Source: Taxillus chinensis (taxonomy: Eukaryota; Streptophyta; Magnoliopsida; Santalales; Loranthaceae). Taken from it: a stretch of 64,000 nucleotides of DNA. Within the stretch, counting starts at the first letter, position 1; every line of letters starts with the position of its first letter. The notes under the pieces are model-generated. The model made no database searches, was not told where the DNA came from, and was given only the letters and a program-made list of their open reading frames with translations. The stretch lies in assembly GCA_023512835.1 (NCBI GenBank), contig CM042087.1, positions 4,994,021 to 5,058,020 on the forward strand, given 5' to 3'. The translations under genes and the position numbers were made by a program. Shown in pieces: positions 8,091 to 40,782 of the stretch.

Positions 8091-8224
8091 GTGACTAGAG
8101 CCAGAGGAGTGGGGCTCCATATCAGAGACCAGCTCAGTCAGGACAGTCAGTACAGGGATGACCTGTTACACAGCAGCCTCAGCGGGAGGCCCAGGCTCAG
8201 AAGGGACAGAATGATCGAGCTACG

Positions 8225-8605: not shown

Positions 8606-8767
8606 TTGACCCGTATGGAGGCAGTGATTGAGTGTTATAGGCGACGAGTGACCTTCCTCACACTAGAGGGGACTCGGGGTACTTTCGTGGGTGAGTGGTC
8701 TGATGATGCGTGCAAGTTGGGCCCTTTGAGGCAAGGATGGGGTGATGTAACCCATTAGTTAGCCAAT

Positions 8768-10060
8768 TTGACTCTTGTTGACACCCAGCAGGAGGGTAAA
8801 GCGGTGTTACCCAAGGTGGTGGATCAGTTTCCTGAGGACTTGGTTGATTTACCACCAGAGAGGGAGGTGGACTTTTCGATAGAATTGCTACCCGGGATGG
8901 CACCTATCAGGTTGGCGGCCTACAGAATGGCACCAGTCGAGCTTAGAGAGCTCAAGAGGCAGATAGACGACCTCTTGGCGCGTGGTTTTATTAGACGGAG
9001 TAGTTCACCTTGGAGTGCTCCGGTGTTATTCGCCAAAAAGGCGGATGGTTCGCTTCGGTTGTGTATTGACTACCGACAGTTGAACCAGGTGACAGTGAAG
9101 AACAGATACCCCCAACCGAGGATCGATGATTTGTTTGACTAGTTCAGGGGTGCCCGTTGGTTCTCCAAGATTGATTTGAGATTTGGATACCATCAGTTGC
9201 GTGTGCGGGAGTCAGACATCCCGAAGACAGCCTTCAGTTGCAGATATGGCCATTATGAGTGGCTAGTGATGCCCTTTGGGCTCACAAATGCCCCAGCGGT
9301 GTTCATGGGGTTAATGAATCAGATCTTTACACATTATCTTGATCAGTTCGTGGTGGTCTTTATAGATGATATCTTGATTTATTCCCAGATAGAGAGCGAG
9401 CATGAGGAGCATTATATGTGGTGTTGCAGACGTTGAGGGACCATAGACTATACGCAAAATTCACAAAGTGTGATTTTTGGCTGCAACGGGTGAAATTTTT
9501 TGGGCACGTGGTATCATCGGAGGGTATCATAGTGGATCCTGGCAAGATTGAGGCAGTGATGTCATGGAAGCACCCAACGAATGTCTTTGAGATCCAGAGC
9601 TTTCTAGGGTTGGCCGGTTATTATAGGAGGTTCGTTAAGGACTTCTCCCGTTTAGCTGCACCGATGACTAGCTTAACCCGAAAGGGGGTACGATTTGTCT
9701 GGTCGGATGCTTGTGAGGAGGCTTTCAGTCAACTAAAGGCTAGATTGACTTCAACACCTATCCTGGTCCTACCACAGGAGGGTGTACCCTATGAGGTCAA
9801 TTGTGATGCCTCTAATGTTGGTTTGGGTTGCGTGCTCATGTAGGAAGGATGGGTAATTGCTTATGGTTCCCGTCAGTTGAGGACCGATGAGAAGAACTAC
9901 CCTACGCACGATTTAGAGCTAGCTGCAGTGATCTTTGCATTGAAGAGTTGGCAGCACTATCTCCTTGGGGAGAAGTTTGTGGTATATACTGACCACAAGA
10001 GTTTACAGTACATATTTTCTCAGCGGGATTTGAATCTCCGACGAGGCGTTGGGTAGAGTA
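8768..10060 (+). pseudogene. pol: G1 reverse transcriptase and RNase H
   Basis: RT core in order: '[31 protein letters not shown]' region, then '[20 protein letters not shown]', '[13 protein letters not shown]' and the catalytic box [13 protein letters not shown] (about 9343-9385). A TAG at 9140 replaces Gln. A frameshift near 9410 moves the frame, after which 'FLGHVVSS'-type sequence (here FFGHVVSS), '[13 protein letters not shown]' and the RNase H start '[17 protein letters not shown]' follow, ending in TAG at 9841. RNase H continues with '[14 protein letters not shown]' and '[13 protein letters not shown]' to a second frameshift near 10040. Catalytic Asp residues are retained; the gene is dead through stops and frameshifts. 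Confidence 0.9.
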
Positions 10061-10061
10061 T

Positions 10062-11642
10062 ATGCGACGGTTCCGGTTCGATCTTCAGTATACACCCGGG
10101 AAAGGGAATGTAGTAGCTGATGCCCTGAGCCAGAAGAGCCAAGCCGTAGTGGCTCTCTGTTCTGTCAAGGAATGGGAGATGATGGGGCAACTAGCTGCTC
10201 TGAGGTTACAGCCAATGCAAGGAGCAGTGCAGGGTATGCTGAGTGCAGTTATAGCAGTGCCTGAGTTGTGACGTCAGGTTATTGAGGGCCAGTTGGGGGA
10301 TGTTGAGTATGAGGTCCTTCGAGATCAGATTCAGACTGCCGTGCTTTCCACTGATTGGATGGAAGATTCTGATCATGTGCTGCGCTATCGAGGTCGACTG
10401 ATAGTTCCATCTTCTCTTCGGGAGACAGTTTTATGGGAATTCCATCACTCTCATTTGGCTGTTCACCCTGGAGGAACGAAGATGTATCATGCTGTGCGAC
10501 AATAGTTTTGGTGGTCAGGCCTTAAGAAGGCTATAGCGGAGTTTGTTCGACGGTGCTTGACATGCCAACAGGTCAAGGCCAAGCATATGCGGTCTGCCGG
10601 TGAGTTGAAGTCGTTACCTGTGCCAGAGTGAAAGTGGGATCATGTGACTATGGACTTTGTCACAGGGCTTCCTCGTTCCAAGGGTCATGATACTATTTGG
10701 GTTGTTGTGGATCGTTTGACGAAATCTGCCCACTTTATTCCGATTCGCGAGACCGATCCGGTCCGAACCTTGGGGCAACGTTATGTCGACGTGGTGGTAC
10801 GGTTGCATGGTGTGCCATTATCGATTGTTTCTGATAGGGATGCACGGTTCACTTCGCAGTTCTGGCAACAGCTACAGCGTGCATTGGGCACCCGAGTGAA
10901 CCTGAGTACAGCTTATCACCCTCAGAAAGATGGCCAGTCTGAGCGCACTATTCAGGAGGCTCACCTTCCCTTGGTGGAGTTCTCCTACAACAATAGCTAT
11001 CAGGCTACGATAGGGATGACGCCATATGAGGCATTGTATGGGCGACCTTGTCGCTCTCCTTTGTGTTGGGCTAAGGCAGGGGAAACAGTTGTTTTAGGTC
11101 CCGATATGGTCCAGGAGACTATCGACTTGGTTCATCTGATCCGACAGCGTATGTTGACAACCCAGAGTCGACAGAAGTCATATGCTAACAAACGGCGGCG
11201 ACCACTTCAGTTCGTCGTAGGGGATCGCGTCTTCTTGCAAGTCTCGCCACGGCGGGGGCACAGGCGTTTTGGGCGATGGTCCAAACTCTCACCTTGATTT
11301 GTGGGTCCTTTTCCTATTCTTGCTATTGTGGGACCGGTTGCCTATCGATTGGAGTTACCACCTGAGTTGGCTCGTGTTCATGATGTTTTCCATGTCTCCC
11401 AATTGCGAAGATATTACCCGGATCCTTCCCATGTGCTTGATTGGCGTGAGATAGAGCTAGCTGATGATGGTTCCATTGTAGAGGCACCAGTTCAGATTTT
11501 AGACCGGCGGGAGCAGGTCTTGCGAGGCAAGACGATTCCGTTGGTCCGAGTTTTGTGGCGCCACCGTAATATGGAGGAGCAGACCTGGGAGCGGGAGAGT
11601 CAGATGCGTGTTCTTCACCCCGAGCTATTCGAGGACGAATAG
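10062..11642 (+). pseudogene. pol: G1 integrase with chromodomain-like C-terminus
   Basis: Begins with the RNase H/integrase linker '[15 protein letters not shown]' (10092 on). The H2C2 zinc finger follows ('HHSHLAVHPGGTKMYHAV', then 'RRCLTCQQVKA'), with stops at 10269 (TGA), 10504 (TAG) and 10630 (TGA for Trp). The catalytic core has D in 'MDFVTGLP', D in '[13 protein letters not shown]' and E in 'GQSERTIQ'. Relative to G2, about 17 codons are missing just after this Glu. After a frameshift near 11297 the GPF/Y-type module and the C-terminal '[21 protein letters not shown]' chromodomain-like block run to a stop at 11640-11642 (ending FEDE). Confidence 0.9.
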
Positions 11643-11900: not shown

Positions 11901-12011
11901 TGTAAAGACCCATACTTGGGTGAGGTTGGAAGTTTGGCCCGAATAGAGTTTGAATATCTATTCGGCAGTGTGACCTCAACACGAGCATTGAGTTATTATT
12001 ATTATTATTTA
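11901..12011 (+). repeat. G1 3' LTR, left part
   Basis: The first 111 bp of the 3' LTR, matching 5454-5564, up to the copia B insertion. The last five bases ATTTA (12007-12011) are the left TSD of B. The LTR resumes at 24912. Confidence 0.92.
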
Positions 12012-12312
12012 TGTTGGATCAAACCCAGAATTTGGATAATGCTGATAAAACCTTATGTAATTTGATCTGAGATCTCTTGTGTTTATTTAATCGTTGCAGA
12101 AGATATGTTATTAATCCGGAGATACACTCGTGAGAGCAAAGCTAAGGACAGGATACATAATCCTGATCCGAACAAGAGTGAGTGTCGTCAAACACTTGGT
12201 AAATAACCAAGTCACCAATACAGACGGAACAAGGAACATTCGTGCGGACTAAGTCAAATTGACGCTAAGTAAGAGTCTTGGTTTACAAGGTCGCACGAAG
12301 TAAAAGAAGCCA

Positions 12313-12675
12313 CGGAGTAAGGCATCCGAGTCTTTCATACATGCGGAGTAAGGAAGTACAAATGCGGAATAAGGACCCGAGTCTTTATTAGACACGGAGT
12401 AAGGAAATTAGATGTAGAGTAAGGAATCCGGACAACTTACTCATACGGAGTAAGGAAGCGCTAGTACGGAGTAAGGACTTCGATCCTTTAAGACTCGCCC
12501 GGAGTAAGGAACTTACATACGGAGTAAGCAATTTACATACGGAGTAAGGAACTTACATGCGGAGTAAGGAAGCGCTGGCACGGACTAAGGATTCCAGTAC
12601 CAAATAGATACGGAGTAAGCAATCACTGACACGGAGTAAGGTTCCGAGCTTCATTAGCTACGGAGTAAGGAAAAT
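12313..12675 (+). repeat. CGGAGTAAG sub-repeat array in B 5' LTR
   Basis: About 12 exact CGGAGTAAG cores by eye, plus variants (CGGAATAAG, CGGACTAAG). They are irregularly spaced, often about 20 bp apart with ACTTACAT between. The array lies upstream of the TATA box, so in the predicted U3. Related arrays occur in every SIRE-type LTR in the window. Confidence 0.85.
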
Positions 12676-12974
12676 TACACCGGACCAAGAAGATACTGCT
12701 TCAACTCAACCGCATTTAAAGTTATCAGCTCGCGGTGTCCCGATGTAAGACAAACTCGTTGAGAACCTAAAGAATCTTACACGTGGATCACCCAGATATG
12801 TGGACACAACCTTAATTGTATTTGGGAACTCACAAACGCACTTATACTCTTCAAACCCAAAATCTTGAGCTCCACAAACCGCAGCAGTCAAGGCAGAGAG
12901 ATTACCGAGGGATAGTTAGTGCTGAACGCATTCTGAAACTACAAGTTCCAAGGTTGTCTCTTAGGAATGTTTTG

Positions 12975-12983
12975 TATAAATAT
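12975..12983 (+). promoter_or_regulatory. Predicted TATA box of copia B LTR
   Basis: TATAAATAT within 'ttttgtataaatattcat', about 960 bp into the LTR and downstream of the sub-repeat array. It is conserved in the 3' LTR and in C (near 54016-54024). Function is inferred. Confidence 0.45.
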
Positions 12984-13304
12984 TCATACTTGTACATTAG
13001 TGAATTAGAGCGCGTATGTGCATTTGTAAGCAAAGATTAACCCTGTGTATGCACAAGCGGCTTTAATTTTTGGGAGATAGAATTTGGCTAGTGTGTGAGT
13101 TCATTTGTAAACAGAGTGTAAGAGAGTCTTGCTTCTATTTTGTTGTATTTATCTTGTGATAATAAAACAAAATACTTCCACTATCTGGTTATCTTCCGCA
13201 GTGATTATATCACTTAACTAGATAAGTGTTTGTGTCTTAAGAGAAAGAAAAGAGTTTCGATAAGAGCCTATTCACCCCCCTCTAGGCTCCAAGAGACCAT
13301 CAAG

Positions 13305-13316
13305 TGGTATCAGAGC
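13305..13316 (+). other. Primer binding site of copia B
   Basis: TGGTATCAGAGC, complementary to initiator tRNA-Met, two bases after the 5' LTR end. Confidence 0.95.
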
Positions 13317-13367
13317 AAGTTCTATTTATTTGTTCTAAGTAGAGATCCCACTCTTTCAATCTCAGAA

Positions 13368-14513
13368 ATGGCCGAAGAAAGCAGTATGCTATTCAACACT
13401 CGCCTTAACTCCGGAGGTGCACAGGAGCCCATCCCGAATCGAAGCGGCGAGTGAAAATGTCGACCCACCTCAACCTGCTGCTGCCGCCTTCTCAACCACG
13501 GAGTTCTGGCTTTACTCTGACGAAACCGCCCAAATTCACACCTGAGCTTTTCTCTCAGTGGAAAGCTCGCATGAAGATGTTTATGGTATGCCATGATCAT
13601 CTTATGTGGCCATGTCTTCATCAAGAGATTCCAATTCCGATGACTATCGGAGAACATGGAGTTAGGACGCCAAAGACAGATGCTGAACTTACCAACGATG
13701 AAAGAGCCTGGCAGTGCGCTAGTGAAAAGGCTCTAGCTTATGTTACATCGTCTTTCGATTCCGAGGCTTTCACGGACGTCCAGGGCTGCACGACAGCAAA
13801 AGCTGTTTCGGACAAACTGACAATCCTCTATGAGGGGAGTCAGTCCCAGATGCAGAACGTGATCTGTACTCTCAGACAGAACTTTGAGAGTTTCAATCAT
13901 AAACCGGGCGAATCACTCGAAAGCATCTATCGGAGATTCGACAAGCTCATTCTTGAGTCAAGACGTCAATGAGCACTATTCTCAATCCCAGATCAATGAC
14001 AAGTTCTTTCGCTCCTTGCCGGATCGCTACTACTCCAAACAACTCCAGATGCAATCGGACAAGAACTGCGAGTATGTTCCCCTTGAAGAACTATATGGAG
14101 AGCTGCGGACTCACGAAGTCAGGTTTAAGTACTCTGACCGGGATGAGAAAAGAGCTCGGAAAGAAAAGGGGTTAGCTCTCAAAGCTACTGAATGTCTAAA
14201 CATACTAAGGAATGATGATACGGACGTGTCCAAGAATTCGGATTCTGACGAGGAGGAGGAGATATCACTTCTTGTCAAATCCTTTGAGCGATTCCTACGG
14301 AAAAGCAGAAAAGGGTTCAGGAGACGCTCATCATCATCTTTCCAAAGGAAGGAGCAACCGGAGTCCAGTTCCCAGGAATGCTTCAACTGTGGGAAAACCG
14401 GTCACTGGGCCAAGGAATGCAGGTCCAAATCAAAAGTGGCCGAGAAAAGTGACAAGGTAACTCCTCGCCGCTCCACCTCGGACAACGGAAGAACAAGAGG
14501 AAGGCGCTCGTAA
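13368..14513 (+). pseudogene. gag: Copia B gag, N-terminal and zinc-knuckle part
   Basis: Start ATG 13368 (MAEESSMLFNTRLNSGG), matching the start in elements A and C. It holds the copia gag domain with 'LTKPPKFTPELFSQWKARM' (about 13519-13575), a UBN2-type segment with 'NHKPGESLESIYRRFDKLI' and the knuckle CFNCGKTGHWAKEC (about 14379-14420). A frameshift near 13450 gives an early stop. A second near 13960 splits the middle, where 'DVNEHYSQSQINDKFFRSLP' resumes. A third near 14500 leads into the next segment at 14522. The product would form the virus-like particle and bind RNA; in this copy it is broken. Confidence 0.9.
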
Positions 14514-14521
14514 CAAAATAC

Positions 14522-15667
14522 ATGAGTGGCTCGGAAGAAGAGGAGGAATCCTCGGATGATGAGCCAACCACTAAGCCGAACGTCTGCCTCATGGCAAATA
14601 CTGAGGTACCTTCTATCTCTGAGCTCCTGAGTAAATTAGAATCTCTTACTACTGCTTGTGATCATGAAAAGAATGAGAGACTAATAATTACTCAAATGTA
14701 CAAAGATATGGAAAGTCAGAATAAACGTCTTCAATTTACTATTAATAGACTCGAAAAGGACATTACTGACTTTAGAGGAAAAGAAGCTTGGTATCACGAT
14801 CTAAGAGCTGAAAATCATTTGTTAAATACCAATCTCTCAGGCCTAAAAGTTATAGTAAAAAGACTCGAAAATGAACTAGAACAAGAAAAGGAAATAAATC
14901 GTAAGTGGCTAAAATCCAGGGAAATAGCCTCTACCTTTAGGACTGACCCTGACGACATCCGAGTCAAACCTGGCCTAGGTTCCGAGTCATCAACATCCAT
15001 AGCTCAAGCTACTGAGTGTCCTCCGGATTTCACTCCTAAACTAACCAACTTATATCCTGTTAGTACATCTAAACCGTTGGATGGTTTCATTTCAGGTGGC
15101 ACCATAGTTTATGACTGTGGAGTAGAGGCTGTTACTGCACTTCCCGAAGCAGTAGCACCCGTAACTAAAGATGAAGGAAAGGCTGCTGCAGCTAAAGCCA
15201 AAACTGTAGCACCCAAAAAGAAAGACAAGGCTAAGGCTGATGCATCTAGGGCCAAGAGCGCATCAAACAAACGCAATGGATTAGGCCACAGGGAACAGAG
15301 TAGAAAGTCTGTAAAATCTAAGAGACCTGTATCCCTTGTTTGTACTTCACATTATAGTGTCTGTTCCATCTGTAGGGAAATAGGTCATTATCACTATGAA
15401 TGTTGGAGTTTATCTGATAACTGGCTTTGTAATCAATTTCATATCAATAAAGATCAGTTAAACAAAAAGGGTTCTTCGAGCAAAACAAAATCTAAACCTC
15501 GAAGGAGTATCTCTCCCAAGAAAACCCAAATAAAAGAGGTAGCTAAAACTAACAAGCTAAAGTCAACTTGGAGAGCTAAAAGTCCTAGCAAAATCAAATC
15601 CATAAATGTTAACAATACTGCTGCTCTCTCTAACCGCCAGAAACAAGTTTGGGCTCCAAAAGTGTAA
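14522..15667 (+). CDS. gag: Copia B gag C-terminal extension: coiled coil and second zinc knuckle
   Basis: An open stretch of 381 codons continuing gag. It starts acidic (MSGSEEEEESSDDE). About 110 residues rich in heptad-like Leu/Ile with charged residues follow ('LLSKLESL', 'NRLEKDITDF', 'RLENELEQEKEINRKW'), a predicted coiled coil. Next is a Lys/Ala-rich basic tract. A second CCHC knuckle, CSICREIGHYHYEC (about 15361-15402), comes before a basic Ser/Lys tail. A long gag with coiled coil suits the SIRE/Maximus group. It ends in TAA at 15665, in the same frame as the protease at 15701. Confidence 0.85.
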   Translation: MSGSEEEEESSDDEPTTKPNVCLMANTEVPSISELLSKLESLTTACDHEKNERLIITQMYKDMESQNKRLQFTINRLEKDITDFRGKEAWYHDLRAENHLLNTNLSGLKVIVKRLENELEQEKEINRKWLKSREIASTFRTDPDDIRVKPGLGSESSTSIAQATECPPDFTPKLTNLYPVSTSKPLDGFISGGTIVYDCGVEAVTALPEAVAPVTKDEGKAAAAKAKTVAPKKKDKAKADASRAKSASNKRNGLGHREQSRKSVKSKRPVSLVCTSHYSVCSICREIGHYHYECWSLSDNWLCNQFHINKDQLNKKGSSSKTKSKPRRSISPKKTQIKEVAKTNKLKSTWRAKSPSKIKSINVNNTAALSNRQKQVWAPKV

Positions 15668-15700
15668 ACTATTGTCTTTCAGGAGCATCTCTGGAATGCA

Positions 15701-16105
15701 TTGCCGGATCACTTGAAGTTAAAGATCAAAAAAAGCAAGTGGATCCTTGATAGTGGATGCTCCGGACATATGACGGGTGATCAGACTCTGCTTGTAGGAG
15801 TTAATGATAAACAAGGTCCATCCGTTTCATATGGCGACAACACCAAAGGTAAGACTGTCGGGTATGGTACCTTAACTAACGGCTGTGTATCAATCACTAG
15901 AGTTGCACTAGTCGAAGGTTTAAAACATAATTTGCTAAGTGTCAGTAATTTATGTGATAAAGGATTTACTGTTTCCTTTTTGTCCAACACCTGTACAGTA
16001 AGAGAAAACTTATCTGGAGATGTTAAGTTATCCGGATCAAGAGATGGGGACATTTACTCAGTGGTCTTAAGAAATAATTCTTCGACCAGTATGCTTCCTC
16101 ACTAA
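15701..16105 (+). pseudogene. pol: Copia B aspartic protease
   Basis: Retropepsin of the copia type: WILDSGCSGHMTGD (about 15740-15780) contains the D-S-G active site, and 'HNLLSVSNLCDKGFTVSF' follows. It is in the same frame as the gag extension, separated only by the TAA at 15665 and 11 codons. This arrangement (gag and pol in one frame divided by a stop) is seen in SIRE-type elements. The segment closes at 16103 (TAA) through a frameshift just before the GAG-pre-integrase region. Confidence 0.9.
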
Positions 16106-17267
16106 AGCATCAAATGAAGACAGTTGGCTATGGCACAAGCGATGCGCACATTTAAACTTTAAGACTTTGTCTAAATTAGCGTCACTTGATCTTGTCACTT
16201 GGTCTACCTAAACTCAAGTTCTCCAGAGACTCTCTCTGTCGAGAATGCCAATTGGGCAAACAGACCAAACATAGCTTTAAGAGCAAATCAGTTAATTCAA
16301 TAACTGCTCCTCTACAACTTCTTCATATGGACCTATGTGGTCCTATATCTGTTCCGTCACTAGCTGGTGCGAGATATACCCTAGTGGTTATCGATGATTT
16401 CACCAGATACACATGGGTGATGTTCCTGAAATCAAAGGATCAAACTTTTGAGCATCTAGTAGATCTCTTCAACTGGATAAGCAACTCACAAGGACTGGGC
16501 ATAAAGTGCATCAGGAGTGATCATGGTACAGAATTTGACTTTTCAGAAATGAGATCATATTGTTCTGACAGGGCATACAGCATGACTTCTCTGCGCCCAG
16601 AACTCCTCAACAAAATGGAGTAGCTGAGCGCAAGAATCGCACTTTAGTCGAGGCTGGTAGATCTATGTTAGCAGGGGCAACGCTTCCTCTCAGTCTATAG
16701 GCTGAAGCTGTGTCCACTGCCTGCTATGTTTAGAACAGAACTCTAATAAATAAATCTACCATGAAAACACCCTATGAGATGTGGAGAAGGCGAAAGCCTT
16801 CAATTTCACATTTCAGAGCCTTTGGGTGTACTTGCTATATACTAAACAACGGCAAAGAACCCCGGAATAAATTTGAACCAAAATCTGATGATGGGATCTT
16901 TGTCGGGTACTCATTTCATAGCAAAGCTTATCGGGTCTTCAATAGAAAACTTTTTAAAGTTGAAGAATCTATCCATGTGACCTTTGATGAAACTAACCTT
17001 GATTTGTCAAAAGTCGGTTCTTCAAGTTCTAATGTGCAGGTCATGGACAGCAACGTCAATTATTCAAAGTTTATGAATGTTCCTGTTACACATCTTGACC
17101 AACCACGTGGCATCAGCGAAGCACAAAGAAATTATATGGATGATGCTACGGATGACTCGGACTCCGGACTACCATTTAGCTCCGGATATACTCCTACGGA
17201 TACCCAAAATTCCGGAGCACCTTCAAGTCCGTCCGGACTAGTTAACACCGAAAGAAACAAGTGTTGA
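16106..17267 (+). pseudogene. pol: Copia B integrase
   Basis: The HHCC zinc finger spans 'WLWHKRCAHLNFKTLSKLA' (about 16124-16180) and 'CRECQLGKQ' (about 16240-16265), with a frameshift between them near 16195. The catalytic D appears in 'LLHMDLCGPI' and D in 'IRSDHGTEFD'. A 1-nt insertion near 16573 shifts the frame, so the third acidic residue (in 'NGVAERKN', about 16614-16640) is in another frame. More stops lie near 16700 and 16735. From 16761, 'KTPYEMWRRRKPSISHFRAFGC' and 'FVGYSFHSKAYRVFN' form the C-terminal part. The frame is lost again at 17265. Confidence 0.9.
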
Positions 17268-17436
17268 AGAACCATCTAGTTCATCCGTACCTCTCAATAC
17301 GGAAACATCTAGTCCGGACGAAGCTCAACCAGCGGATACAACTGAACCACCTAATCTGGAAGAGCTTCAAATTGTTCAAGATCATCCATCACATGCACAG
17401 AATTACAGATGGACTCGAAACCATCCCTCAGATCAA

Positions 17437-18380
17437 GTGATTGGTGATCCTACTGTTGGTGTAAGAACAAGAGCAGCCACCTCCAACATGAGTCTTTACT
17501 CGTGTTTTCTATCTCAAATAGAACCAAAGGTGGTAGATAAAGCTCTTCAGGATTCAAATTGGATAGAAGCCAGGCAAGAAGAGTCAATCAATTTAAGAGA
17601 AATAATGTGTGGACCTTAGTGCCAAGGCCTAAGTCTCAGCAAGTCATTGGCGTTAAATGGGTGTTCCGGAACAAGCTTGATACGGATGGAATAGTAATCC
17701 GGAATAAAGCCAGACTGGTAGCCAAAGGATATCGTCAAGAAGAAGGAATAAATTATGATGAGACCTTTGCTCCGGTAGCAAGACTTGAGGCAATCCGAAT
17801 GTTTCTGGCGTATGCTTCATATGAAAACTTCATAGTTTATCAAATGGACGTCAAGAGCGCATTCCTGAATGGAGATCTTCAAGAGGAGGTGTACGTTGAA
17901 CAACCTCCCGGCTTCATTGAACCTAAGGCAGGACATCTTGTCTACAAGCTTCGGAAAGCTTTATATGGATTGAAGAAAGCTCCAAGAGCCTGGTACGACA
18001 CACTGTCAGAATTCCTACTTGCTCACAACTTCCAAAAAGGGAAGATAGACACCACCCTATTTCTACGAAAAGAGAAAGGACACACTCTGATCGTACAAAT
18101 ATACGTGGATGATATCATTTTTGGATCAACGAATCCGAAGCTTTGTGAAGAGTTTGCTAAGTTGATGACAGGCAAGTTTGAGATGAGCATGATGGGAGAA
18201 CTGTCCTACTTCCTTGGAATAGAAGTTAAACAATTAAAGGAAGGAATCTTCATTAATCAAGCTAAGTACACTCGCGATCTTATTAAGAAGTTTGGTATGG
18301 AAGGTTCATCTCCTGTCAAAACTCCCATGCCTGTCAGTGCCAAGTTAGATCCGGATGTTGATGGCATATCAGTAATGTGA
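17437..18380 (+). pseudogene. pol: Copia B reverse transcriptase
   Basis: The connector 'RTRAATSNMSLYSCFLSQIEP' leads, after a frameshift near 17580, into the RT: '[16 protein letters not shown]', '[17 protein letters not shown]', '[16 protein letters not shown]', '[20 protein letters not shown]', '[19 protein letters not shown]' and the catalytic box YVDDIIFGS (about 18102-18128). The catalytic residues look intact. The open stretch ends at 18378 by a frameshift. The region 17268-17436 between integrase and RT is acidic and Ser/Pro-rich linker sequence, out of frame. Confidence 0.93.
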
Positions 18381-19046
18381 CTGACTACAGAGGGATGATC
18401 GGATCCTTGCTGTATCTTATAGCAAGTCACCCAGACATTATGTTTGCAACTTGCATCTGTGCACGATACCAGGCGAATCCCAAGGAGTCACATATGCTTC
18501 ATGTTAAACGGATATTAAGGTATCTCAAGGGAATGATGAATTTGGGACTCGGTACCCAAAGGAGTTCAACTTCACCTTATCCGGATACTCGATGCCGACT
18601 TCGCTGGATGTCGCATTGACAGGAAGAGCACAAGTGATACATGTCAGTTTCTTGGAAATAGATTAATTTCATGGTTCAGTAAGAAGCAGAATTCCGTATC
18701 AACCTCTACTGCTGAAGCGGAATATATAGCTACTGGGAGTTGCTGCGCACAACTACTCTGGATGCAAAGTCAACTTACTGACTACGGTTTCAACATGTCA
18801 TCTATTCCACTCTACTGTGACAACACTAGCGCTATTGCTATCAGCAACAATCCTGTCATGCATCCTAAGATGAAGCATATTGAAGTCCGGTATCACTTCA
18901 TACGTGATCATGTTCTTAAAAGTCACATCTCACTGGAACACGTTGCTACTGAAGATCAACTGGCCGACATTTTTACAAAGCCCCTACCTGATGCAAGATT
19001 CTCTGAACTACTCTTTCGTTTAGGTATGCTCGACTTTTCTGCATAG
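18377..19046 (+). pseudogene. pol: Copia B RNase H
   Basis: 'GMIGSLLYLIASHPDIMFATCICARYQ' and 'HMLHVKRILRYLKGMMN' (RT thumb/connection) lead into RNase H. A frameshift near 18590 interrupts 'DADFAG'-type sequence. The rest reads 'STSTAEAEYIATGSCCAQLLWM' (about 18700-18765) and then 'YCDNTSAIAISNNPVMHPKMKHIE', 'RYHFIRDHV' and 'ATEDQLADIFTKPLPDARF' to a stop at 19044. This is the normal end of copia pol. Confidence 0.92.
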
Positions 19047-20719
19047 TTTCACCTTTAATTTGCCCAACAGTATACTTACTATCAGAACATGCATTGTGCT
19101 TTTATTGAAAGTGGAAGATATATACTGATTTTAATGCTGATCATACTTACTGATTAACGGCTTCATGCTTCTGATATTAATATCAACTTCATTGTGGGAG
19201 GATGCTTGCGTTTCCCGACTGAAGTCGTTTAAGCTAACATGATTAAAGTTTATATGATTTACCTCCTTCTAGTTTCATGATCTTAATTTCCACTAAACAC
19301 CACATGACAATAGCATGTTCATTTAGATTACTCTATTAACATGTATAGTTGAAGAAATGAAATGGGTTAGCTCGGAATGCCTGGTGGATGAACACTCAAT
19401 CGCAGTCTGGTCAGCTTCTGAAGTAAGTTTCCTAAAAAGATAGACAGTGCTGAATTCTACAAACCGAAAGTGTCAACCGAGAGGATTGCAAAATCTACGA
19501 GGGAGAAAATGCTTTATATATTATTCAGTAATACCCCCCGTATATGTCTCATGACCTCTTTCCTGGCTGTCTATTTGAGGGGGAGCTCTTCATTGAGAGG
19601 ATTAAATGATCTACGGGGGAGCAATAATGAACCCCTAATATGTCTCGGATACTCCCTCCTCTAAACTTTTACTTTCGAATCTGACTGGACATGCTGTTTA
19701 GGGTCAGAAAAGTGGCATGCTTGGATGTATTTTCTTTCTTCAACCATGCATTTTAATAGGCTAATCACCTGCTTACTTTTGACATGTGTTCGCTTCCACA
19801 TTTTTCACTCATGAATCCTAAATTGGCCAAATCATATGATCTTTAATTAATCTTAGCTACGTTGTTCAGCAAGACAGTTTCGCTATGTTGACCTATATGA
19901 ACTTGTGTATTGTTATCTGACATATGCCCTGATTCAGTAATATTGCTCATTCTCACGTATGTATATGTCTCTTACATCTCTGGAATGCATAAGTTCTGTT
20001 TCTCATTAGTTCGGATTATGTCGTTTTTCACTGATTATTTTCCCTAATCCGTACTAATCCTTGCCTGTTAAGCTTTTGTATTTTCAGTTCATTTTTTTTA
20101 GCTACAGGTTCAGATTCTCTTTGCAACCGTATCGATAAATCTAGTCCATAGTCTTGGATTTGAAGTGTTGTGGTACTTCTCTTCTCTTCAACTTATTGAC
20201 TGCAAAGGAATCAACTTTACTCTCTCACCGAACTCTGTCTACTACGGACACGGTCTACTTTTCATCCGGATACTCTTCCTCGACTATTATTTACTCCAGA
20301 TGATTGTCGGTTCATTCCTCCGGACTCCTGACACAGTTTAATTGCGACAATCCAAGTCTCCCTATATGTCGCGTGCTTTTGAGGAGGAATCATGATGATT
20401 CATTAAATGCAAATCTCGGGATGCACACACACTTCTTTGGATGGCAACCAGCTGTTACACTTACTTAGTCATGCGGTCTCCACGACATCGTTTCACTCGG
20501 AGGCGCATCGATATCCAGACTCATGACATCAGCCTGTCAAGCGGGTCCCTATTTCACTCGCCAATTCCTAGACCCGCTGACATTTGCGGACTCGGTCTTA
20601 TATGTTCTGATCATTCCTGCGCAGCACGAGTATTGCTTATTTCAAATCCCTAAACCTCTCGTTGCTCCTTCCATCGCCAAGACCTCACCTTTCCTCTTGT
20701 CCTTCAAATTTCATCTACA
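19047..20719 (+). other. Long spacer between pol and ORF3
   Basis: 1.67 kb without a credible gene. It is T-rich, with purine-rich islands at 19490-19660. It ends in a pyrimidine-rich leader ('cctcacctttcctcttgtcc') directly before the ORF3 ATG. Element C keeps the same spacer (about 59830-61430), so it is a real part of this family. It may hold signals for a separate ORF3 transcript, but nothing specific was recognised. Confidence 0.6.
19490..19660 (+). repeat. Repeated PPT-like islands in the B spacer
   Basis: Two related units: 'aatctacgagggagaaaatgc ... gtatatgtctcatgac' and 'gatctacgggggagcaataa ... atatgtctcggata', with 'tgagggggagctc' between them. Each carries a G-rich purine run resembling the true PPT (AATTAGGGGAGA at 23577). 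C has the same pair at about 60250-60415. Confidence 0.55.
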
Positions 20720-23393
20720 ATGGCACCTAGAATATCTCTTTCTAGCATTAATCCTGGCCATCTAGTTGATTGGAATGCTGTCTCTAATCCTCCGGATTGG
20801 TTTTTCCAGCTTCGCCCTCTCCTTGAAGCCTCGCATATACTCAACCTGATCTCCAATCCCGTCGATCTTTTTATCGACGACATCATTGAGTATTACCAAC
20901 GGATTCGCTGCACCACCGATTCCATAACCTCTTATGTCCGCGGTGAATCCATCATCATCACTCCGGCCGTTCTCCGCGCTGCTCTCCACCTACCTCTTGG
21001 TGAACCACAACGCCCAGATGCCGATCCAATGGCGGCTTCTATGGGTTGCACACAAAAAGGCAAGGAATACAAGGTGAAATCCTTCCAAGGTCGCTATCGA
21101 TGTATGGCGACCATCTTGAGTCGATGCTTACTGGCTCGCACATCCGCCCTCGACTCCGTTCCGTACGACCTTCTCCTGGCCATGTACGGCGTTTTTGAAG
21201 GTCTTCCGATGGATTGGGGGATGTTCTTGTTTCGGTTGCTGCAGAATGGTCCCAAGAACCATTCCTTCGGGCGCATCCTCAGCATTGTCTTCCGGCATCT
21301 TAATCCGGACCATTTTGCCCAATATGATGATGTTCCATTTCCTTCGGCTTATTACCTTCGTTATCTTACGCCGGATGGGAACATGACAGCCCGCCGACCA
21401 TCTGCAACTCTCCGCATACTCCCTGCCTCGGAACAACAAGGAAGTTCATGGTGACCCCTCCGACAGCCTAAGCCCCGACGTCGGTTCTGCACCCCGATCC
21501 TCCCGGATTCGGTCCATTGCAAGACCTTCTCATTCTCGGGCCTCCCGAGACAGCGTTCGTGCCGACCCATCCGAGGTTGCGGGGCCATCTCAGGTCGAGT
21601 GCCCTAAAGTCGTTTCCTCGGCCCCTCTCGCTGCGGATGTCCCCACTCCCTCCTCCTCCGTGTTGCTGCCGCGGTTGATACCGCTGTTGCGGCCGCCACT
21701 GCTGATGTCCCGGCCTCTTCTCCGGAAGCCCCTTTGCCTCCCCTACCTCAACCCCGAGATTACCTTGACCATCTCTCCGCCGAGACCTTAACGAACCTAT
21801 GGCTCCATTTTAGCCTTGCCCACACTGCCTCCATTCCTGACAACGATCTCCGGGTGTTTTACACACGCCATACCCAATCCCCGGAGACAATGATCATCTG
21901 GAACTTGGATCACGGCTTTCTTACGCCGGCCTCCATTCCAGATGTGGCGTTCACTACTCCCTCCAGCCTAGCACATTCCGCCAGGGGTCCTTCTCCTACT
22001 AAGGCTAGCCCCACTTCTCCTACTGCCGCTATTCCCGTGGTTGACCTTTCTGGTCATAGCGGGTCAGCTGCTCCGGATGCCTCTGATGCTCCGGATACCC
22101 CTTCTGCTGCTGCTGCTGCTGCTGATACTCCTACGGACTCCTCTGCCCAACACACTCCTGCTCCTGTTCATGCGGGGGAGTCCTCCAAAGCTCCGGAGTT
22201 GGTCCTTGGGCGTGCCTCTTTTGGCACGGTCCACTCCGACGCTGTGCTTTCCGCCCAGCTAGACCGACACGCCCAAGCTCAAAGCGCCCAAATTTCCGCC
22301 ATCGCTGCCAAGGTTGATGCCCTCGGCGCCCAACTCCTCTCCGCTCTCACTGACTCCTCCACTTCAATGGAGTAGAAAATGGATCTCGTCGCCTCGTCCG
22401 TCCATTCATTGTCTACCTCCTTCGCGGACCTAGCGCACACGATGGCTCGTCCTCCCGTTGCTTCCCGGTGATCTGCCAAACCGGGGGAGAAAGTGTCATC
22501 TGATCCGTCTGCTCCTTCTGCACCACAACCATCTACTCGGACTGAGAAGCGGCCTGCCTCTTCAGTGCTTCAGGGAGTTCAAATTCCCAAACGAAGCCGC
22601 TTCTCTCAGCTAAGCTCCTCTACTGCAGCTCCAGCTCCTCCTCCATCCTCCTCATCCGCAGCCAACACCTTCCTCCCATCATATGCGGCGTTTGACCCTT
22701 CTGATGCGGATGGAAGTGTTCGCAAAGCAATGAAGTCCTATGCAGCGTCTTCTGCTGAGAGAAGATGTCTTTCTGAAATGTACCCTTTCTCCCTGGACGA
22801 CATTCAGACTCTTTGTTTGGAGAAAGGACTCTTTACTACAGAAGACATTGACAACTTCTCGAGGGCTACTAAAATGGAGATGAGGCTGTTTCCATCTCTA
22901 TACAAGGATGGGCACTTGTTTGAAGTTCTGCCGTGCTGGAATGAAGGCTATCTTCCCAGTGTGGATCTAATTCAGTCCTTCATCGACGGATAGCAAGCCA
23001 TGGTAAACTCTCTCAACTATCCTCATTCCATACCAGATCATGACGCCACACTTCATGATGGCTATCTTCATGATTCAGTCCAAGCAAATGATTCTCATTG
23101 ACTCTCATCAGATAGTGGAGCACTTTGTAAGAAAGAATCAATGGGAACCACTGTGTCTCAGGCTGACTGAAGCTGTGAAGAAAGCCGGTTTATATGAAGA
23201 GTTGGGTATCACACCCTTGGGTCCAACTGAGAAGCTGAAGGCGACATTCCGGGGCAAGAAGCAAGTGCCACAACAGCCGGATGGAGATAGCTGCGGGGCC
23301 TTTGTCTGTTACTTCATCAAGTCCTTTTTGACTGTGGACAAATCGTGGAGCCAACACACTACTTATACGATGAAGCCAGACAATGGAGCTTAA
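20720..23393 (+). pseudogene. Copia B ORF3: transposon-domain/Ulp1-like fusion, broken
   Basis: A third gene after pol, about 890 codons in its undamaged form. The start is ATG 20720 (MAPRISLSS); the same start context occurs in C at 61431. Residues 1-240 form a globular domain with 'DWFFQLRPLLEASHILNLI', 'FIDDIIEYYQRI' and 'VRGESIIITPAVLRAALHLP', resembling the putative plant transposon protein family. A Ser/Pro/Ala-rich linker follows (to about 22260), then a helical stretch, a domain with 'YPFSLDDIQTLCLEKGLF', and the C-terminal Ulp1-like protease. Damage: frameshifts near 21430 and 21660, TAG at 22373, TGA at 22469, and about 11 nt missing at 22989 relative to C. Not env-like: no signal peptide or membrane segment is seen. 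Confidence 0.75.
22994..23393 (+). pseudogene. Ulp1/SENP-like (C48) cysteine protease domain of ORF3
   Basis: C-terminal part of ORF3, in a shifted frame. 'TLSTILIPYQIMTPHF' (in B with small changes upstream) gives the catalytic His at 23049. 'QMILIDSH' gives the Asp at 23100. 'PQQPDGDSCGAFVCYF' gives Gln at 23274 and the nucleophile Cys at 23292, with Gln six residues before Cys as in C48 peptidases. Known C48 enzymes remove SUMO or related modifiers; activity on any substrate here is inferred only. In C the region around the Cys codon is altered, possibly by sequence error. Length from His to Cys is about 81 residues, on the short side for the family. Confidence 0.75.
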
Positions 23394-23576
23394 AGAGAAG
23401 GCAGCAACTATGATCTTCAAGTATAGTAAGCCTTATGTACCTTAGTGAAAATCTTGTATTAAGGCTGAATTGTACTTAGTTGCTATTAAATGAAATTGGT
23501 TGTGATGTATATTCTGTATGTTATCTTTTTGCACTGCTTACCAGATCAGATTACAAAGGGTTTGGGCATATCCATA

Positions 23577-23588
23577 ATTAGGGGAGAT
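23577..23588 (+). other. Copia B polypurine tract
   Basis: AATTAGGGGAGA immediately before the 3' LTR start TGTTGGATCA. The interval from ORF3 to here (23394-23576) is AT-rich and non-coding. Confidence 0.85.
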
Positions 23589-24906
23589 TGTTGGATCAAA
23601 CCCAGAATTTGGATAATGCTGATAAAACCTTATGTAATTTGATCTGAGATCTCTTGTGTTTATTTGATCGTTGCAGAAGATATGTTATTAATCCGGAGAT
23701 ACACTCGTGAGAGCAAAGCTAAGGACAAGATACATAATCCTGATCCAGACAAGAGTGAGTGTCGTCAAACACTTGGTAAATAACCAAGTCACCAATACAT
23801 ACGGAACAAGGAACATTCGTGCGGACTAAGTCAAATTGACACTAAGTAAGAGTCTTGGTTTACAAGGTCGCACGAAGTAAAAGAAGACACGGAGTAAGGC
23901 ATCCGAGTCTTCCATACATGCGGAGTAAGGAAGTACAAATGCGGAATAAGGACCCGAGTTTTTATTAGACACGGATTAAGGAAATTAGATGCGGAGTAAG
24001 GAATCCGGACAACTTACTCGTACGGAGTAAGGAAGCGCTAGTACGGAGTAAGGAACTTACATACGGAGTAAGGAACTTACATACGGAGTAAGGAATTTAC
24101 ATATGGAGTAAGGAACTTACATACGGAGTAAGGAATTTACATACGGAGTAAGGAACTTACATGCGGAGTAAGGAAGTGCTGGCACAGACTAAGGATTCCA
24201 GTACCAAATAGATACGGAGTAAGCAATCACTGACACGGAGTAAGGTTCCGAGCTTCATTAGCTACGGAGTAAGGAAAATTACACCGGACCAAGAAGATAC
24301 TGGTTCAACTCAACCGCATTTAAAGTAATCAGCTCGCGGTGTCCCGATGTAAGACAAACTCATTGAGAACCTGAAGAATCTTACACGTGGATCACCCGGA
24401 TATGTGGACACAACCTTAATTATATTTGGGAACTCACAAACGCACTTATACTCTTCAAACCCAAAATCTTGAGCTCCACAAACCGCAGCAGTCAAGGCAG
24501 AGAGATTATCGAGGGATAGTTAGTGCTGAACGCATTCCGAAACTACAAGTTCCAAGGTTGTCTCTTAGGAATATTTTGTATAAATATTCATACTTGTACA
24601 TTAGTGAATTAGAGCGCGTATGTGCATTTGTAAGCAAAGATTAACCCTGTGTATGCACAAGCGGCTTTAATTTTTGGGAGATAGAATTTGGCTAGTGTGT
24701 GAGTTCATTTGTAAACAGAGTGTAAGAGAGTCTTGCTTCTATTTTGTTGTATTTATCTTGTGATAATAAAACAAGATACTTCCACTATCTGGTTATCTTC
24801 CGCAGTGATTATATCACTTAACTAGATAAGTGTTTGTGTCTTAAGAGAAAGAAAAGAGTTTCGATAAGAGCCTATTCACCCCCCTCTAGGCTCCAAGGGA
24901 CCATCA
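23589..24906 (+). repeat. Copia B 3' LTR
   Basis: 1,318 bp, from TGTTGGATCA to GACCATCA, followed by the TSD ATTTA. Highly similar to 12012-13302; it is longer by about 27 bp because the CGGAGTAAG array differs. Confidence 0.95.
23890..24276 (+). repeat. CGGAGTAAG sub-repeat array in B 3' LTR
   Basis: About 13 exact CGGAGTAAG cores plus variants. The stretch 24041-24170 is a near-regular tandem run of 21-bp units (core plus ACTTACATA). The 5' LTR has a different unit order there, showing repeat slippage or recombination since insertion. Confidence 0.85.
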
Positions 24907-24911
24907 ATTTA

Positions 24912-26029: not shown

Positions 26030-26356
26030 AAGTTCCAAGGTTGTCTCTTAGGAATGTTTTGTATAAATAGCATTTGTAAGCAAAGATTAACCTGTGTATG
26101 CACAAGCGGCTTTAATTTTTGGGAGATAAAATTTGGCTAGTGTGTGAGTTCATTTGTAAACAGAGTGTAAGAGAGTCTTGCTTCTATTTTGTTGTATTTA
26201 TCTTGTGATAATAAAACAAGATACTTCCACTATCTGGTTATCTTCCGCAGTGATTATATCACTTAACTAGATAAGTGTTTGTGTCTTAAGAGAAAGAAAA
26301 GAGTTTCGATAAGAGCCTCTTCCCCCCCTCCCCCCTTAGGCTCCAAGGAACCATCA
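26030..26356 (+). repeat. Second copy of the B 3' LTR end, right of the gap
   Basis: Repeats the end of the copia B 3' LTR (from 'aagttccaagg', compare 24546 onward) to CCATCA at 26356, followed again by ATTTA and G1 LTR. It lacks about 36 bp after 'tataaata' and has a garbled C-rich stretch near 26323-26336. Most likely a redundant contig end. Confidence 0.85.
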
Positions 26357-26595
26357 ATTTAATGTGGTGATTTTAATATATTAAGTTTATTATTAAATAT
26401 TAAACTTATTAATTTAATTATTTAAATTATTTAAGTAGGTGAGTATTTATAATAATGAATGTAATGATGATTATTATTATTACAATTGTTGCGTTGATTA
26501 TTATTAAGGGATTATAATGTAAGTATTTTAAATATTGGACTTTATTTTTATTAATATAATTATTTGGGATTAATTCTTATAATGAAATATTATTA

Positions 26596-32362: not shown

Positions 32363-35074
32363 CTAAAACGACAACTCATGCTCAGTACCCTCTGTCCAGT
32401 CCTCAGATAGCTCACCAGCCTCAATACGAGCATGGAGAACCTCACACTCAATGTCACCCAACTGTCCCTCCTGGACGCGCTGGTACAACTCAGGCACAAC
32501 CACCAAAGGACTCAGAACTGTCCCACCATCACGAACAACAGGCTGCAGCTGCAACATCGCCAACTGCTCCATCAGCTTCCACTCTCGCACGGCCACCTCA
32601 GCTTTCCCTTTTCTGCTCAACGCATCAGCCACAACATTACCCTTGCCCGGGGTATAAGCAAGAGTAAAGTCAAAGGTTTGCAAATACTCCACCCATCTCC
32701 TCTGCCTCAAATTCAAGTCGTTCTGGGTAAAGATGTACTGAAGGCTCTTGTGATCCGAGAACACTACAAACTTCTCCCCCAAGAGGTAATACTGCCAACT
32801 CTTCAGGGCGAAGATGACAGCGGCCAACTCAAGGTCATGAGTAGGATAATTCTGCTCATGAGGCTTCAGCTGCCTTGACCCATAAGCTACCACACTATGC
32901 TCCTGTATAAGCACACACCCCAAACCAACCCTGGACGCATCACAATACACCCCATATGTGATATCCTCCCGAGGTAACCTCAACACCGGTGCAGTGGTCA
33001 AACGGGTTTTGAGAGCCTCAAACGCCTGCTGACACTTATCAGTCCACTCAAACTTCACTCCCTTCCGAGTCAACGCCGTCATAGGAGCTGCCAAACGGGA
33101 GAATCCCTCTACAAAACGACGGTAATAACCTGCCAAGCCAAGAAAACTATGAATCTCGAAAACATTGGTTGGCCTCTCCCATGATGATACCGCCTCAATC
33201 TTGGCTGGGTCCACTCTAACCCCTTTAGCGGATACTACGTGGCCAAGGAAATGGACCTCCTGCATCCAAAACTCGCATTTGTTAAACTTAGCAAACAACC
33301 GCTGGTCCCTCAAGGTTTGCAACACTGTTGCCAAATGCTCCACATGCTCCCTCTCGGTCTTGGAATATACCAAGATATCGTCTATAAACACCACCACGAA
33401 CGAGTCTAAGTATGGGGCAAAGACTTGGTTCATCAAATGCATAAACACTGCCGGCGCATTAGTGAGCCCAAAAGGCATCACTATCCACTCATAGTGCACA
33501 TACCTGCACCGAAAGGCCGTCTTAGGGATGTCTTCCTGCCTAACCCTCAACTGATGATACCCCGACCGTAGATTTATCTTGGAAAACCACCGGGCTCCAC
33601 TCAATTGATCAAACAGGTCATCGATCCGAGGCAACGGATACTTGTTCTTCACAGTCACCAAATTCAGCTTCCTATAGTCGATGCAGAGACGAAGCGTGTC
33701 ATCTGCCTTCTTAGCAAAGAGCACCGGAGCACCCCAGGGTGAGGTACTCGGTCTAATATACCCCTGGTCCACCAACTCTTCTATTTGCCTCTGTAGCTCC
33801 CTCAACTCAGCTGGTCCCATCCGATAAGCCACTTGGGATATCGGTCCAGTCCCCGGTACCAACTCAATGGTGAACTCTACACTCCTCTTAGGAGGTAAAC
33901 TCCTCAACTGGTCAGGAAAGACATCCTGAAATTGGTCAACAACTGCTGGCCACACTCTCTTTTCCACTTTCCCCTCCTCAGCAAAGGTCAAGGCTGCCAA
34001 CCTGTGGGTAATGGCACCCCACTGGTCTAGCACTGGCCCAGCCCAACTAGCCTCACAATCCCACTCCCCCTGCAAGGTGCAAGAAACCCCCGCAGGTGAC
34101 ACAAAGGATACCCGCCGCCCATAACAGTCTATCTTGGCCTGGAAAGCCATAAGCCAATCCATACCCAAGATCAGGTCAAAAGCACGCAAGGGCAATACAT
34201 GCAGGTCGAAGCTCAGCTCCACACTTCCTATAGTTAACACACAGTCACGGCAAACACGCCGCACTTCAATCATAACCCCCACTGGAGACTTAACAACTAG
34301 GGCCTTCGCTGCCTCCACACAAGCTAACCCCAAGCTATCTATCATAAGCTCAGCAATAAAAGAACACGATGCACCCGTATCGAAAAGAACAGAAGCTAAT
34401 GTACGGGAGATCAAAAGGGTACCGCTAACCACCGATGGTCCTGCTCCACCCTCAGCCGGTGGGGGTGGTAGCTCAGCCTCCTCCTGGTACGTCGCCTCCA
34501 GCGTAAACACCCTTCCTTGGCCCGTGCCACTGGTCGGCTCACTCACTGGACGCTTCCCGCCATGGCTGCCTCCCACTTCAGTCTGCTGACGCTCTTGCCT
34601 CCCCTGAGGTTGGGTCTGGCTAGATCCCGCATGGCTAGCCTGCCACTGACGGGCTGGCCTCTCCGCTGGAGCGCGAAAACTAGCATCACTCCTCATGCTA
34701 GATGCCACACCTCCTGCTCCCCTGTTGCCACTCTTGCACACCCGGCTCAAGTGGCCCTCTCGCCCACAGTTGTTACACCGCCAGTCCTTCTTGGGATATT
34801 CCCTCTTGAAGTGACCTTGCCTCCCACAACAAAGACAACCGTTGGGGGAACCTCCTGCTGAACCTCCCTGCCCACTACCGCCAAGGGTGAACCTCCCTGG
34901 GTTCACAGATGGTAGACCCCGGATGCGGAAAGAACTATTATCTCTCTCCTCAGTCTTGGGCCTCTTGGACCCAGAATCGCGTTCAGACCCACCTTGCAAC
35001 TGGCGACCCTGGTGAACCTGCCTCCCATCATCCAGTTCCCTCTCAGCTATGCGCTGTCTCAACAACCTCAACAT
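32363..35074 (-). CDS. pol: G2 zinc knuckles, protease, reverse transcriptase, RNase H
   Basis: An open stretch of 903 codons. In order: basic linker; knuckles ([14 protein letters not shown], last Cys lost to Tyr, and [14 protein letters not shown]); protease with [13 protein letters not shown] and '[10 protein letters not shown]'; RT with '[29 protein letters not shown]', '[17 protein letters not shown]', '[17 protein letters not shown]' and [13 protein letters not shown]; RNase H with '[18 protein letters not shown]', '[16 protein letters not shown]' and '[13 protein letters not shown]'; then '[16 protein letters not shown]'. All catalytic motifs look intact. It begins by a frameshift from gag near 35055 and stops at 32363 where Arg is expected. 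Confidence 0.94.
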
Positions 35075-35837
35075 AGGTCCTCAAACGCAGAATCGCCACC
35101 CTCTGCCTAAGAGCTAGCCTGAGACCCAAGGTGAACTTGTGGGCTTTCAGGTTCTCATTTGCCACAGTCTCGGGGGCAAACCTACTCAGGCTCCGGAACT
35201 CCCGCTCATACTCGGGCACCGTCTTTGATCCTTGCTTCAGGCTGCCAAATTCTTCTCTCTTCTGCCATCTCAAGGACTCAGGGAAAAACTCATCATGGAA
35301 GAGTTGCAAAAACTCCTCCCACAGCATAAACTGCACCGCATGGCTCCCCGCGACACTCTGCTACCACTCCAGAGCATTCTCCTCTAGCTGCCGAATGGCC
35401 AGCCTCACCTTATCCTCCTCCCGGGGTAGGAGAAAGGAAAACACATGTTCGATCTGTCTCAGCCAGTGCTCAGCTAACACTAGGTCCTCCTCTCCTTTGA
35501 ATCGCGGAGGTTGTTCCTTTCGGAACCGTGTCACTACGTCATCCTCTGCACGAATCGGTATACCACTCAGCGAACCCTCACGCTCCCGGGGTAGCTCCCC
35601 CACTGGTGGTGGTGGTGGTGGCACGACCTGCTGGGCTGCCATCTCGCGGCGCACCTCCTCCCATACCTCTTGCCGGATACCCTCCCTCAGCTCTAGGACT
35701 TCCAGCCGGATGCCTTCTCGCAGCTACGCCAGCAACAGTGCATGTCCTCCAACGGACTGCCCCGCACCCGGGCCCTCATGGGCAGATGACTCATCAGCCA
35801 CTGCCCCGGACGCACGTGTCACTCTACTCGGTGGCAT
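35043..35837 (-). pseudogene. gag: G2 gag
   Basis: Start ATG 35837 (MPPSRVTRASGAV). TAG at 35724 interrupts the N-terminal helical repeat ('LREGIRLEVLELREGIRQEVWEEVR'). The frame continues with 'VTRFRKEQPPRFKGEEDLVLAEHWLRQIEHVF' (retrotransposon gag domain) to a second stop near 35361 (in 'EW*QSV', Trp expected). It then runs through 'EEFLQLFHDEFFPESLRWQKREEF' to 35043, where a 1-nt indel moves into the pol frame. The product is the particle-forming Gag. Confidence 0.9.
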
Positions 35838-40734: not shown

Positions 40735-40782
40735 TTCTTTGCTTCCTCCCTTTTTATAGAAAATTCCAAAATTTGTTGTTCC

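Follow-up and report, generated by a model that had tools for sequence, protein, structure and literature searches.

Why would a copia-type retrotransposon carry, behind its pol gene, a third gene that ends in a Ulp1-type protease domain? The question is raised by element B, a long terminal repeat (LTR) retrotransposon of Taxillus chinensis located in the 64,000-nucleotide stretch analysed here (the window; contig CM042087.1 of assembly GCA_023512835.1, positions 4,994,021 to 5,058,020 of the forward strand). In window coordinates, its third open reading frame (ORF3) occupies 20720-23393 on the plus strand. A first-pass annotation had read the C-terminus of its product as a Ulp1/SENP-like cysteine protease. 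Here, we report that ORF3 belongs to a whole copia family, that purifying selection acts on it, protease included, and that it may encode an enzyme directed at SUMO.

ORF3 is predicted to end in a Ulp1-type catalytic domain

ORF3 of element B is broken. Three pieces, 20720-21451, 21608-22372, and 22472-22990, lie in a common frame, and a fourth (23007-23390) in another. The interruptions are stops at 21452, 21605, 22373, 22469, and 22991, the first two of which enclose a stretch open in another frame, and a switch of frame upstream of the His region. Judged from its sequence, the protein is predicted to comprise approximately 910 amino acids (aa), with a plant-transposon-type N-terminal region, a low-complexity linker, and a C-terminal Ulp1-type (C48) domain. 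The N-terminal region (20720-21451, plus strand) shows a weak match to the Transposase_32 profile PF20167 (E 1e-4), scoring 22.7 bits in B and 15.1 and 14.4 bits in 2 uninterrupted ORF3s from other copies, below the curated cut-off of 45. The catalytic domain is placed at 22778-23393 on the plus strand, its left end being the start of the aligned stretch.

The 128-aa frame 23007-23390 of B matches the Peptidase_C48 profile PF02902 with an E-value of 5.5e-5 and 23.5 bits, above the gathering cut-off of 20.7, and both uninterrupted ORF3s also pass (21.5 and 22.3 bits). The C-terminal domains of all 20 fetched copies match at E 0.01 or better, the best reaching 1.2e-6. The C48 homology proposed from the catalytic residues is thus borne out by the profile. 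The residues themselves lie where the first-pass annotation had placed them, in C48 order: frame 23007-23390 carries the codons for His at 23049, Asp at 23100, the second Gln of PQQ at 23274, and Cys at 23292, with reference spacings that we assume for C48 enzymes. The His region can be set in register with 'HWCLAVVDF..ITYYDS' of SENP1, with a negative alignment score. In shuffled sequences, a His-aromatic pair followed by Asp 17 residues on and located 45-70 residues before Cys arose in 0.4% of cases, and in 4.5% when the aromatic residue was not demanded.

H95, D112, Q170, and C176 are invariant across the 20 C-terminal domains. A domain was called clean when 220 or more of its 225 codons lay in a single piece and identity reached 85% or more; 80 loci yielded 75 with the domain, 50 clean domains, and 37 that were also stop-free. 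All four catalytic residues are present in each of these 37 (30/30, 4/4, and 3/3 by the three sampling routes described below). With broken copies included, the 40 protein-chosen copies retain His in 39 (one Tyr) and Asp, Gln, and Cys in 40 each. None of the four codons carries a change common to three or more copies. A chance motif was considered and rejected on the profile match, the family-wide presence, and the selection reported below. A search of NCBIfam gave nothing significant (one match at E 0.42), and protein databases queried with one frame of the window's ORF3 and with the C-terminal part of an uninterrupted ORF3 returned zero hits at the set thresholds. Relatives were not found in viral contigs searched with the C48 frame, the reverse transcriptase (RT), and the C48 alignment.

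Two short motifs precede the catalytic domain. VVDLS followed by acidic residues (22037-22051, plus strand; IVDLS in two copies) is readable in B and 19 of 20 copies and resembles what we take to be the consensus of a SUMO-interaction motif (SIM). The motif KRPASSVLQGVQIPKRSR (22547-22600, plus strand), whose two basic clusters are both retained in B and 16 of 20 copies, resembles the pattern that we assume for a bipartite nuclear localization signal (NLS). Shuffled linkers yield the SIM-like motif in 0.9% and the NLS-like motif in 0.5% of cases, figures that are optimistic because both motifs were spotted after reading the sequence. No particular splice acceptor stood out from the conservation along the stretch between pol and ORF3, compared over 18 sequences.

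ORF3 is a trait of an abundant copia family

The source genome comprises 521 Mb in 264 contigs. Searching it with the 128-aa C48 frame gave 7,656 first-look candidates, 150 of which were scored. All 150 carry the gene at 91-100% identity, and the copia family carrying ORF3 is very abundant. From the 150 we fetched 20 copies as stretches of 8.5-9 kb, picked for long open frames. Pol lies upstream of ORF3 in 18 of them (RT in 17, RNase H alone in one). Copies with an uninterrupted ORF3, the existence of which the first-pass annotation had left to a genome search, number 2 among the 20 and encode 907 and 910 aa.

Choosing copies by their protein favours conserved proteins, so two further samples were added. 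The non-coding-chosen sample consists of the top 24 of 40 listed matches to the stretch after ORF3, which left 20 copies after removal of B and three already fetched; the C48 domain is present in all 20. The RT-chosen sample consists of the top 22 copies after B by RT rank, which left 20 after removal of two already fetched. In 15 of these, the domain is spaced from RT by a fixed distance, one of the 15 being partial (L087, the first 62 residues only). At the expected distance, the other five hold the N-terminal region of ORF3 (one copy), pol (one copy), or sequence unlike B (three copies). Capture of the gene in one copy is ruled out by the 150 scored matches and the 15 RT-chosen copies. The earlier view that ORF3 belongs to the family therefore holds, with 150/150 scored genome matches and pol upstream in 18/20.

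Purifying selection acts on ORF3

Following the logic presented in PMC9073684, we treated variants private to one copy as mostly post-insertion and shared variants as having passed through replication. Counts below are non-synonymous:synonymous variants for the private, two-copy, and three-or-more-copy classes; bracketed values are ratios to the context-matched expectation from mutation. The copies are related by descent and not independent, so that the p-values, which compare private with three-or-more variants, are indicative. For C48 in 36 of the 40 protein-chosen copies, the counts are 137:61 (0.82), 21:29 (0.36), and 18:50 (0.19), p = 9e-10. The ORF3 N-terminal region (12 of 19 copies) gives 117:94 (0.50), 19:30 (0.32), and 12:44 (0.13), p = 5e-6. 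For comparison, RT (12 of 17 copies) has a pattern like that of C48, 63:35 (0.81), 8:16 (0.22), and 0:25, p = 6e-10, and RNase H (14 of 18) gives 237:83 (0.83), 48:16 (0.99), and 43:48 (0.33), p = 3e-6.

Depletion of shared non-synonymous variants recurs in the 20 non-coding-chosen copies, where C48 gives 221:71 (0.90), 73:30 (0.78), and 27:39 (0.30), p = 1.1e-7, and in 57 of 60 pooled copies, with 283:80 (1.03), 95:53 (0.60), and 58:81 (0.34), p = 4e-14; these counts, like those for the linker given below, merge pieces in different frames and so include wrong-frame codons. Restricting the non-coding-chosen sample to clean domains (n = 8) gives 55:26 (0.88) for private against 8:20 (0.15) for three-or-more variants, p = 0.0004. 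Because non-synonymous variants in ORF3 are near neutral when private and depleted when shared, as they are in RT, we conclude that ORF3 is selected. Constraint along ORF3 is uneven, since in 50-residue windows over 20 long copies the three-or-more variants number 5:28 at residues 701-910 and 73:50 at residues 201-300. The dN/dS-type question that the first-pass annotation had posed is answered for ORF3 as a whole by the contrast between 137:61 and 18:50, p = 9e-10, with B the only dated copy. Neutral decay was ruled out on the depletion of shared non-synonymous variants in two samplings.

These counts also bear on whether ORF3 is a decaying fragment of a host gene carried as a passenger. Its broken state in B and in 18 of the 20 fetched copies would fit such a fragment, which we nevertheless consider very improbable given the strong depletion of non-synonymous changes among shared variants, the presence of uninterrupted copies, and the family-wide occurrence of the gene.

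Element B is a SIRE-type copia element

Element B spans 12012-24906 and is flanked on either side by the target-site duplication ATTTA (12007-12011 and 24907-24911). Its 5′ LTR (12012-13302, plus strand) and 3′ LTR (23589-24906, plus strand) measure 1291 and 1318 bases; their alignment has 44 differences over 1291 positions (96.6% identity) and 27 gap columns. The perfect boundaries described earlier around the gene are therefore confirmed. The Kimura two-parameter (K2P) distance between the LTRs is 0.035, corresponding to an age of approximately 1.3 to 2.5 million years at the substitution rates that we assume. Both LTRs contain a tandem array with a 20-base, CGGAGTAAGGAACTTACATA-like unit (12480-12591 and 24024-24195), the copy number of which differs between them. 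The segment 24646-25050, covering the end of the 3′ LTR and its flank, recurs at 26091-26500 with 97-99% identity across a run of N, which is probably an assembly duplication, as if contig ends overlapped over the gap.

A tRNA-Met-type primer-binding site (PBS), TGGTATCAGAGC, lies after the 5′ LTR (13305-13316, plus strand). It is followed by gag-pol (13409-19046, plus strand), where Pfam matches to Retrotran_gag_2, rve, and RVT_2 occur in copia order, with integrase ahead of RT. RNase H is assigned by position, a Pfam match being absent from its piece. Of the 'complete copia pol' described in the first-pass annotation, the domain set stands; the frames do not, with gag-pol divided among several of them in B. 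The internal polypurine octamer AGGGGGAG (19578-19585, plus strand) sits in the pol-ORF3 interval, and the exact octamer has the same placement in 16 of the 20 fetched copies. The terminal polypurine tract (23580-23588, plus strand) reads AGGGGAG in B and TGGGGGAG in 16 of 18 copies, one base off the octamer, and is followed by AT preceding the TG of the LTR. Element B has this AT/TG attachment site, and so does every one of the 18 fetched copies (of 20) in which the LTR start was located. The junction is described as a Sirevirus feature (PMC2829016). On these structural signatures, element B is a Sirevirus/SIRE-type copia element.

The composition of pol bears on a further explanation, namely that the ORF3 product is a maturation protease cutting the element's own proteins. 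In adenovirus-like and pox-like viruses, proteases of clan CE act in maturation, so that the role is known for the clan in several viruses, and the selection on ORF3 is compatible with any function in the element. Copia elements, however, already encode an aspartic protease within pol, and a nuclear-type signal together with a SIM-like motif would be unexpected in such an enzyme. We regard a maturation protease as quite unlikely.

Other elements in the window

A second element of the same kind, element C (53183-64000), is cut by the window end and aligns with B over 11.5 kb at 84% identity with 804 gaps. The claim that it carries ORF3 in the same place (61430-64000, plus strand) stands in respect of position and alignment; indels are numerous throughout the gene, and neither the codon of the catalytic Cys nor the SIM-like and NLS-like motifs can be read in it. 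Over 54290-64000, CTG words occur at 4.4 per kb in C versus 18.7 in B and CCG words at 24.8 versus 11.6, with hundreds of small indels. The shift looks like systematic long-read miscalling at methylated CHG sites, a cause that we presume, and the breaks in element C may be artefacts because the pattern resembles such miscalling. On the minus strand, 1-3361 is probably a third copy of the copia family of B, cut by the window start and recognized by eye from a gag zinc-knuckle frame. The intervals 7125-11297, 32363-35723, and 40303-43458 hold two gypsy-type elements, on the plus and minus strands, and a different minus-strand copia element (Pol_BBD, Retrotran_gag_2).

Relation to known elements

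Element B shares with SIRE elements bearing a 3′ forward extra ORF ('env-like') the LTRs, the Met-type PBS, the AT/TG site, the internal polypurine octamer, and the order of gag-pol, an untranslated stretch, and then a forward ORF. According to Neumann 2019, 74% of SIRE elements have a forward extra ORF and 21.4% of the extra ORF proteins have a CDD domain of some kind; the authors ask whether these ORFs function at all (PMC6317226). These ORFs form 19 groups that resemble one another little, and C48 is not named among them in the passages of that paper compared here, which do not include its supplementary domain table (PMC6317226).

The KIU/Kaonashi genes of Vandal/Mutator elements likewise encode a Ulp1 domain, which is reported to be strongly conserved in eudicots (PMC13317346). 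Their carriers are DNA transposons without LTRs whose Ulp1 domain sits on a VANC-type protein, whereas ORF3 belongs to a retrotransposon and has another N-terminal region. With its LTRs, PBS, and copia pol, element B is not a Mutator-type carrier. Ulp1 domains are also reported from Mutator DNA transposons in PMC2836005. Ginger1, NeSL, and Utopia provide further cases in which a Ulp1-like protease was independently paired with a mobile element (PMC2836005, PMC4640811). The Ginger1 domain is part of a fusion with the transposase (PMC2836005), and in the nematode non-LTR elements NeSL and Utopia it lies at the N-terminus of the RT protein (PMC4640811), whereas here it belongs to a separate gene after pol. 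The sunflower Athila aORF is also a 3′-side forward ORF with partial Transposase_32 (PF20167) similarity, comparable to the N-terminal region of ORF3; it differs in belonging to a gypsy element, in its length of 487 aa, and in that 'Ulp1' does not occur in the main text of its description (PMC11728184). A Ulp1 domain in a copia element was not reported in the parts of the open-access literature surveyed, the Neumann 2019 domain table excluded. The arrangement is thus unreported in that literature, though not proven to be the first of its kind.

A possible role in relief of SUMO-dependent repression

The most likely reading, to which we give about an even chance, is that ORF3 encodes a nuclear isopeptidase for SUMO or another ubiquitin-like (UBL) modifier that helps its element, perhaps by relief of SUMO-dependent repression. 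In such a mechanism, the ORF3 protein would enter the nucleus, its SIM-like motif would bind SUMO or SUMO-marked proteins, and the C48 domain would remove SUMO or a SUMO-like modifier. SUMO removal might then lessen SUMO-dependent repression of the encoding element or protect the element. The earlier interpretation stands in its C48 homology, family membership, and non-neutral evolution; the deSUMOylase role, comprising catalysis, a SUMO substrate, a nuclear site, and a benefit through relief of repression, is what we infer from the sequences. Work in yeast reports higher RNA levels of Ty1, itself a copia-type element, in Ulp1 mutants, on loss of Ulp1 tethering, and when SUMO conjugation is reduced; its preferred explanation is that factors yet to be identified become less SUMOylated (PMC8585004). 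In Arabidopsis, Vandal elements with a Ulp1-bearing VANC (KIU) are reported to induce hypomethylation of elements related to them; what the Ulp1 domain contributes is described as unknown (PMC13317346). More tentatively, this could be an LTR retrotransposon lineage with a deSUMOylating enzyme as its third gene, which would act against silencing and be convergent with the Ulp1-carrying VANC proteins of Vandal DNA transposons.

Several observations weigh against a SUMO isopeptidase. The PF02902 match spans residues 84-109 only, in the last third of the profile. The best match to a solved structure, SENP1, has E-values of 0.034 with the short frame, 0.07 with a profile, and 0.36 with whole ORF3, and alone is not significant. 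The AlphaFold2 model has a mean predicted local distance difference test (pLDDT) score of 41.9 on a shallow alignment. These comparisons also bear on whether the enzyme is instead a protease for ubiquitin, NEDD8, or another UBL that mainly shields element proteins from degradation. The weak PDB matches include chains of 'Deubiquitinase and deneddylase Dub1' (E about 0.1, not significant), whereas the best PDB match is a SUMO protease and the linker has a SIM-like motif, both weak indications. We consider a UBL protease of this kind rather unlikely.

Other observations of the same tenor concern catalysis and the distribution of constraint. With broken copies included, the 20 non-coding-chosen copies retain His in 20, Asp in 19, Gln in 17, and Cys in only 14. 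A non-synonymous change of the Cys codon, private in each of the clean non-coding-chosen and RT-chosen samples, is found in two copies of the pooled 14. The clean RT-chosen domains (n = 6) show no contrast between private (39:38, 0.44) and three-or-more variants (6:7, 0.35), p = 1, and in the 14 pooled clean domains the contrast is weaker (76:53, 0.57, against 14:27, 0.21), p = 0.007. The linker is selected too, with 292:161 (0.71), 79:69 (0.47), and 53:90 (0.26) in 20 copies, p = 1.2e-8. Could ORF3 then encode an env-like or structural protein, with the C48-like tail as a non-catalytic binding module? Its position is that of the env-like genes of Sireviruses (PMC2829016, PMC6317226), its N-terminal region and linker are conserved as well, and two copies have the Cys-codon change. 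The four catalytic positions, however, are kept in all 37 stop-free clean domains and are untouched by any non-synonymous variant in three or more copies, which makes a non-catalytic tail improbable.

Evidence from plants on SUMO and silencing is mixed. The silencing factor MOM1 binds SUMO, and this contact is reported to be dispensable for silencing (PMC6084981). The histone deacetylase HDA6 is reported to lack SUMO1 modification and to be restrained, not helped, by the SUMO ligase SIZ1 (PMC8616286). Both points tell against a simple link between SUMO and silencing.

ORF3 is a SIRE extra ORF in which an enzyme domain can be recognized, the catalytic positions are intact, and selection has left its mark within a single genome, and because of these three properties the function of SIRE extra ORFs becomes directly testable in vitro. 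Through ORF3, copia elements of plants are also connected with SUMO, whose pathway is implicated in the control of Ty1 in yeast in the work cited above (PMC8585004). If ORF3 does encode an anti-silencing deSUMOylase, one group of 'env-like' Sirevirus ORFs, so far enigmatic, would gain a biochemical function, and the high copy number of the family would be easier to explain.

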